This document shows positions 1,921 to 1,993 of a stretch of DNA of 64,000 nucleotides, piece by piece; position 1 is the stretch's first letter, and each line of letters starts with the position of its first letter. Source of the stretch: Thermoleophilaceae bacterium (GTDB lineage: Bacteria > Actinomycetota > Thermoleophilia > Solirubrobacterales > JACPNS01); assembly GCA_016462645.1 (NCBI GenBank), contig JAEMSX010000006.1, positions 21,654 to 85,653 on the forward strand, read 5' to 3'. Under the pieces are notes generated by a model, which saw only the letters and a program-made list of their open reading frames with translations, was not told the DNA's origin and did no database searches. The translations under genes and the position numbers were made by a program.

Positions 1921-1991
1921 ATTCTCATCGTGATGACCACGCAGATTCTCATTCTGGTGGCCAAAGTGGTCCATGGGAGTGACCGCCGACA
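1921..1991. repeat. second (older) Tn7-like transposon end, 'element A' right end
   Basis: ATTCTCAT at 1921-1928 and 1945-1952, degenerate CCAT ending at 1974, terminal GCCGACA ending at 1991. Distances of the repeat 3' base to the terminus are 63/39/17 bp, identical to the right end of the 1994-16403 element. Confidence 0.75.
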
Positions 1992-1993
1992 CC
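1989..1993. repeat. left target-site duplication ACACC
   Basis: ACACC directly precedes TGTCGG at 1994; the same 5 bp directly follow CCGACA at 16403. Confidence 0.85.

Follow-up and report, generated by a model that had tools for sequence, protein, structure and literature searches.

The window, the whole 64,000-nucleotide stretch analysed here, corresponds to bases 21654-85653 of an 85,653-bp contig in an incomplete assembly. It contains a 14.4-kb transposon (1994-16403), hereafter the newer element, which is flanked on both sides by the 5-bp duplication ACACC; the left copy (1989-1993) and the right copy (16404-16408) can be read directly. The left end (1994-2066, plus strand) has three repeats of ~18 bp and scores 63.3 bits with the left-end model R1, for which it was one of seven training sequences. 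The right end (16333-16403, minus strand) was recognised by end-profile scores and by its in-register match to a second putative end at 1921-1991.

The newer element encodes a TniR-like serine resolvase (9150-9770, minus strand; Pfam Resolvase, E 3.7e-46), followed on the plus strand by a tniA-like DDE transposase with rve and Mu-transpos_C domains (12296-13861), a tniB-like AAA ATPase matching AAA_22 and TniB (13858-14613), and, in the place of TniQ, a proposed target selector (14610-15797) that combines a degenerate TnsC-like AAA half with a truncated Xer-like half. A small HTH-type protein (15794-16267, plus strand) adjoins the right end; it was matched by phmmer to its counterpart in genome G453 (E 3.6e-5), and the counterparts in relatives are Xre-family proteins with an HTH_3 domain. 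No match to TniQ was found among the element ORFs scanned with Pfam, nor any to TnsA or TnsD among the ORFs scanned. The cargo (window 2082-8507) includes a SEC-C protein, a weak Xre/MbcA antitoxin-like match and an endonuclease/exonuclease/phosphatase protein. PADLOC gave weak matches only, to two of the cargo proteins tested.

An older right end abuts the newer element

The preliminary description of this DNA had proposed that 1921-1991 is the end of an older transposon, in the same orientation and with the same internal spacing as the right end at 16333-16403 and with terminal GCCGACA. Its coordinates, orientation, spacing and terminal bases were all reproduced. The terminus at 1991 reads TGTCGG on the minus strand, and each of the two ends has ATTCTCA repeats at a 24-bp spacing (1921/1945 and 16333/16357). 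Aligned in register, the two ends are identical at 44 of 71 positions, as against 35 of 71 at the next-best of the ~171,000 positions on both strands of the 85.6-kb contig. A right-end profile trained on the newer right end and five right ends of genome G054, with 1921-1991 left out, gave 29.6 bits for 1921-1991 and 9.4 bits for the best non-end position. Leave-one-out tests were concordant, 1921-1991 ranking above all non-end positions of the contig. Judged by its sequence, then, 1921-1991 is a transposon right end.

A chance likeness of host sequence to a transposon end would suit the ordinary-looking genes to the left of 1921-1991 and the missing partner left end (see below). We rejected such a resemblance on the identity and profile scores, which lie far beyond background; the repeats are moreover in register and the same junction geometry recurs in G054, so that we give chance next to no credence.

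The final three bases of the older end (ACA) double as the start of the left ACACC copy, so the older end must already have been present when the newer element inserted.

It had also been expected that extending the assembly to the left would reveal a matching left end for the older element, next to its predicted duplication CCGCC. None was found in the 23.6 kb of contig upstream, and in the nearest 12 kb, searched with filters off, only the older end itself rose above background. A plausible cause of its absence is deletion, or else recombination among repeated left ends. The adjacency of two ends had further been taken to argue for a lack of immunity between them. It is only consistent with this: the two ends are 62% identical, and different transposases could account for their adjacency without any bearing on immunity.

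The insertions lie at a nearly constant distance from dif

A dif site is located at 16440-16467 (plus strand; ATGCACGATAA-TTGACG-TTATGTGAACT), with its XerC arm toward the insertions. The newer right end is 36 bp from it, and once the newer element and one copy of its duplication are removed the older end is 33 bp from it, as first calculated. An older transposon end thus abuts the newer element in the same orientation and at almost the same distance from a genuine dif, in line with the preliminary description.

A single copy of the dif core CGATAATTGACGTTATGTGAA is present in this genome and in each of three out of four same-genus genomes, and GC skew switches sign at it. When one mismatch at most was allowed, a degenerate form of the core was found in 59 of 232 genomes of the order, one per genome save in one genome, with a single control match in all. 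The 21-base core was successful in the genome search; a 30-base dif pattern with three mismatches, which extended into unconserved flank, for that reason matched only this one of 121 genomes. The core was absent from the viral contigs searched. When the right flank was compared by BLASTN, the aligned stretch was only 31-34 bp, at dif, in each of three relatives. Since the neighbourhood is otherwise unconserved, dif is the plausible insertion signal. The kinase right of dif was ruled out as a syntenic anchor. In none of the three relatives that have a dif does an orthologue of 1921-1991 lie beside it.

An inverted near-copy of the XerC arm (ATTTTCGTGCA versus TGCACGATAAT, 10 of 11 bases) adjoins dif on the insertion side (window 16429-16451). 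Such a match is expected in ~2 in 10,000 random 40-bp stretches, and it is not obviously conserved in G051, G052 or G054.

A stack of ends beside dif in a related genome

The arrays of ends next to dif that had been predicted for related genomes were found in G054, a genome of the same genus. Six left ends, all pointing the same way, lie there on the XerC-arm side, to the left of dif when dif is read in its own orientation (oriented positions 10994, 11845, 16080, 17460, 19034 and 21262; dif core at 21473). They score 63-81 bits with the left-end model, which was built from these six and the window's own left end, and the bits describe these seven sequences rather than test them. Two of the six were also recovered independently by BLASTN of the newer element (73-79% identity).

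Five of the six left ends come 8, 4, 7, 3 and 3 bp after a right end, and the corresponding gap in the window is 2 bp; the mean gap, 4.5 bp, is near the duplication length. On the assumption that every insertion duplicates 5 bp, each gap is 5 bp plus the distance of the older insertion from dif, less that of the newer one, and successive insertion distances would then differ by at most 3 bp at all six junctions. The spacing of successive ends makes such stacks a built-in ruler for both duplication length and targeting precision. The best candidate for the innermost right end in G054 lies exactly 36 bp from dif, its score alone not being significant.

There are five complete units in this stack (0.85-4.2 kb), with unrelated cargo and without tniA. 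The cargo comprises an Ig-like surface protein with an IS3-type transposase fragment, a hydrolase with TetR, and small unknown genes. A full tniA was not found in G054; the sole match, of 71 residues, is on another contig. Past their tips, the right ends of units u4 and u5 match only weakly, and no matching 5-bp flanks were seen around the units. Recombination between repeated left ends, if it took place here, would yield this lack of matching flanks.

These units bear on the possibility that 1921-1991 is no separate insertion but a chimera or product of rearrangement: a former array unit fused to host DNA through deletion or recombination, with a 33-bp spacing inherited from a neighbour. Such an origin would agree with the loss of matching flanks by the G054 units and with the missing partner left end. 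The tip of the older end is intact, and its spacing to dif is that expected from independent insertion; we consider a rearranged origin unlikely.

The short spacing from right end to left end (2-8 bp) would also be expected if arriving elements were guided by the end of an element already present, by end-adjacent insertion or by IS21-like joining of abutted ends, dif being the first landing place. The TniA of the newer element indeed scores against the IS21 transposase model. Against this, both strong left-end-bearing loci of the genus lie beside dif and on the same arm though their neighbours differ, and additions are always on the dif side. Cargo differs between units, which are thus not copies of one element. 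An IS21-like junction was set aside: IS21-like abutted ends join tandem copies and have no target duplication, whereas here the two ends differ and the newer element has its own complete ACACC duplication. Homing to ends seems to us very unlikely.

Ends in other genomes of the order

Across the 232 genomes of the order, the left-end model (E < 0.001) matched both ends of the newer element, the G054 array, a relict in G051 and, weakly, one sequence from another genus. The relict is an end-like sequence 2.9 kb from dif on its XerD side (L041 18131-18199), adjoining an MTHFR-like gene. The latter gene lies right of dif in this genome (G000) and in G051 and left of it in G054; despite its being on opposite sides, the ends keep to the XerC arm in G000 and G054 alike. 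The XerD-side position of the G051 relict would be explained by an early insertion followed by inversion of the terminus region. The relict and the outermost G054 end may go back to one old insertion. In G052 dif is present, and ends were not found in the stretches examined.

The proposed target selector

The product of 14610-15797 has 395 residues and no Pfam or NCBIfam match. Its gene overlaps tniB, as do its counterparts in related elements. An AlphaFold2 model built from five sequences reached pLDDT 75.8, and in a Foldseek search with this model TnsC, MuB, XerA and Cre were near the top, all above E 0.001. Comparison by hhalign with two groups of host Xer proteins gave E-values of 3e-4 and 5e-4, though the probabilities reached no more than 31-39%. 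The Xer-like half stops before the box-II and tyrosine region, and the protein should therefore be inactive as a recombinase. We model it as a degenerate TnsC-like AAA domain joined to a dead Xer-like recombinase, and on this model it is probably the dif selector. Only two close full-length homologues were present in the protein collection, both on short contigs, and a scan of the genome collection with the selector alignment returned no named relatives.

G028 and G453, which belong to two different families, carry related elements that share this gene order and lie directly against the nrdJ stop codon, nrdJ being the gene for B12-dependent ribonucleotide reductase (L008 about 6067; L030 9906). 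Their selector/HTH side faces nrdJ, and their selectors are 18-21% identical to the 14610-15797 product. One fixed site per lineage would thus be a trait of the element family, and this fits a modular selector.

Like a res site occupied by its resolvase for Tn5053, a dif site occupied by XerCD (or FtsK) might itself attract the transposase machinery, the 14610-15797 protein only bridging to Xer. The Tn5053 family prefers res and uses the resolvase of the target site (PMC7765201), and candidate host XerC and XerD are encoded in all five genomes (5/5). The relatives at the nrdJ stop codon have the same kind of protein at a place without a recombination site, which favours direct reading of DNA. 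Attraction by bound Xer is a possibility that we hold only tentatively.

Comparison with known systems

Like members of the Tn5053/Tn402 family, the newer element has TniA, TniB, a serine resolvase, 5-bp duplications and a preferred orientation beside a recombination site. In that family res sites are preferred and transposase-less members are reported to be mobilised in trans (PMC7765201). Here, in contrast, TniQ was not found among the ORFs scanned, the target is dif, a tyrosine-recombinase site, rather than res, and insertion is beside the site and not within it. Since no TniQ was found and the target is not res, we did not file the element as Tn5053.

The fixed distance and orientation from a conserved chromosomal signal, with the right end nearest and a 5-bp duplication, are as in Tn7 at attTn7. 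Unlike Tn7, the newer element has no TnsA or TnsD/TniQ match among the ORFs scanned, and its target is dif, not glmS.

TnsF of Tn6022 is a presumed selector resembling an inactivated tyrosine recombinase; it carries zinc fingers at its N terminus, acts together with TniQ and has comM as its target (PMC10293859). A putatively inactive tyrosine-recombinase-like protein is the presumed selector here too, with moderate fold and profile matches and a truncation before the box-II and tyrosine region. It differs in that its N-terminal half is TnsC-like and its target is dif; because zinc fingers and TniQ were not found, the element was not placed with TnsF/Tn6022.

IMEX elements such as LME-1 also use dif as their chromosomal address, and they recombine into it via host Xer and carry a dif mimic (PMC9765430). 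The newer element, in contrast, is a DDE transposon 36 bp away with a 5-bp duplication, and there is one dif core in the genome. With dif intact and single, it was not classed as IMEX.

Proposed history and mechanism

We think it very likely that 1921-1991 is what remains, as a right end, of an older transposon of the TniA/TniB type, that a related element was inserted between this end and dif, and that such elements stack by recognising dif at a fixed distance. In this history the older transposon would have lost its left end, with its right end remaining at 1921-1991. A related element with its own TniA, TniB and Xer-like protein would then have entered between the older end and dif, the 5-bp stagger of its cut taking in the final three bases of that end. 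The elements would recognise dif, either bare or Xer-bound, and would insert ~36 bp (plus or minus 3) away on its XerC-arm side with the right end toward dif. Under fixed-distance insertion each arrival would fall within a few bp of the previous right end and push that end outward, which would give stacks in one orientation. Units without a transposase would presumably be mobilised in trans. We infer the selector role of the 14610-15797 protein, its reading of dif and the movement in trans.

In a broader reading, to which we give about even chances, these elements would form a TniQ-less family of the Tn7/Tn5053 type with a fused degenerate-TnsC and dead-Xer selector. They would use dif as their attachment site and build integron-like, one-way stacks of cargo, mostly moved in trans.

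Most bacterial chromosomes have one dif, which would thus be a near-universal safe harbour. The known users of dif are phages and elements that recombine into it. In the literature searched, with subscription journals mostly outside it, no paper describes a DDE transposon with dif as its attachment site. A DDE transposon inserting at a set distance from dif, seemingly with the aid of a captured Xer-like protein linked to a TnsC-like domain, would add a further way of choosing targets.

Related elements were also present in G069 and G130, with no dif in the stretches examined. Distant relatives of TniA lie near the ends of Streptomyces-type linear replicons, close to both ends of contig 1 of G357 and near the end of plasmid NZ_CP109039.1.
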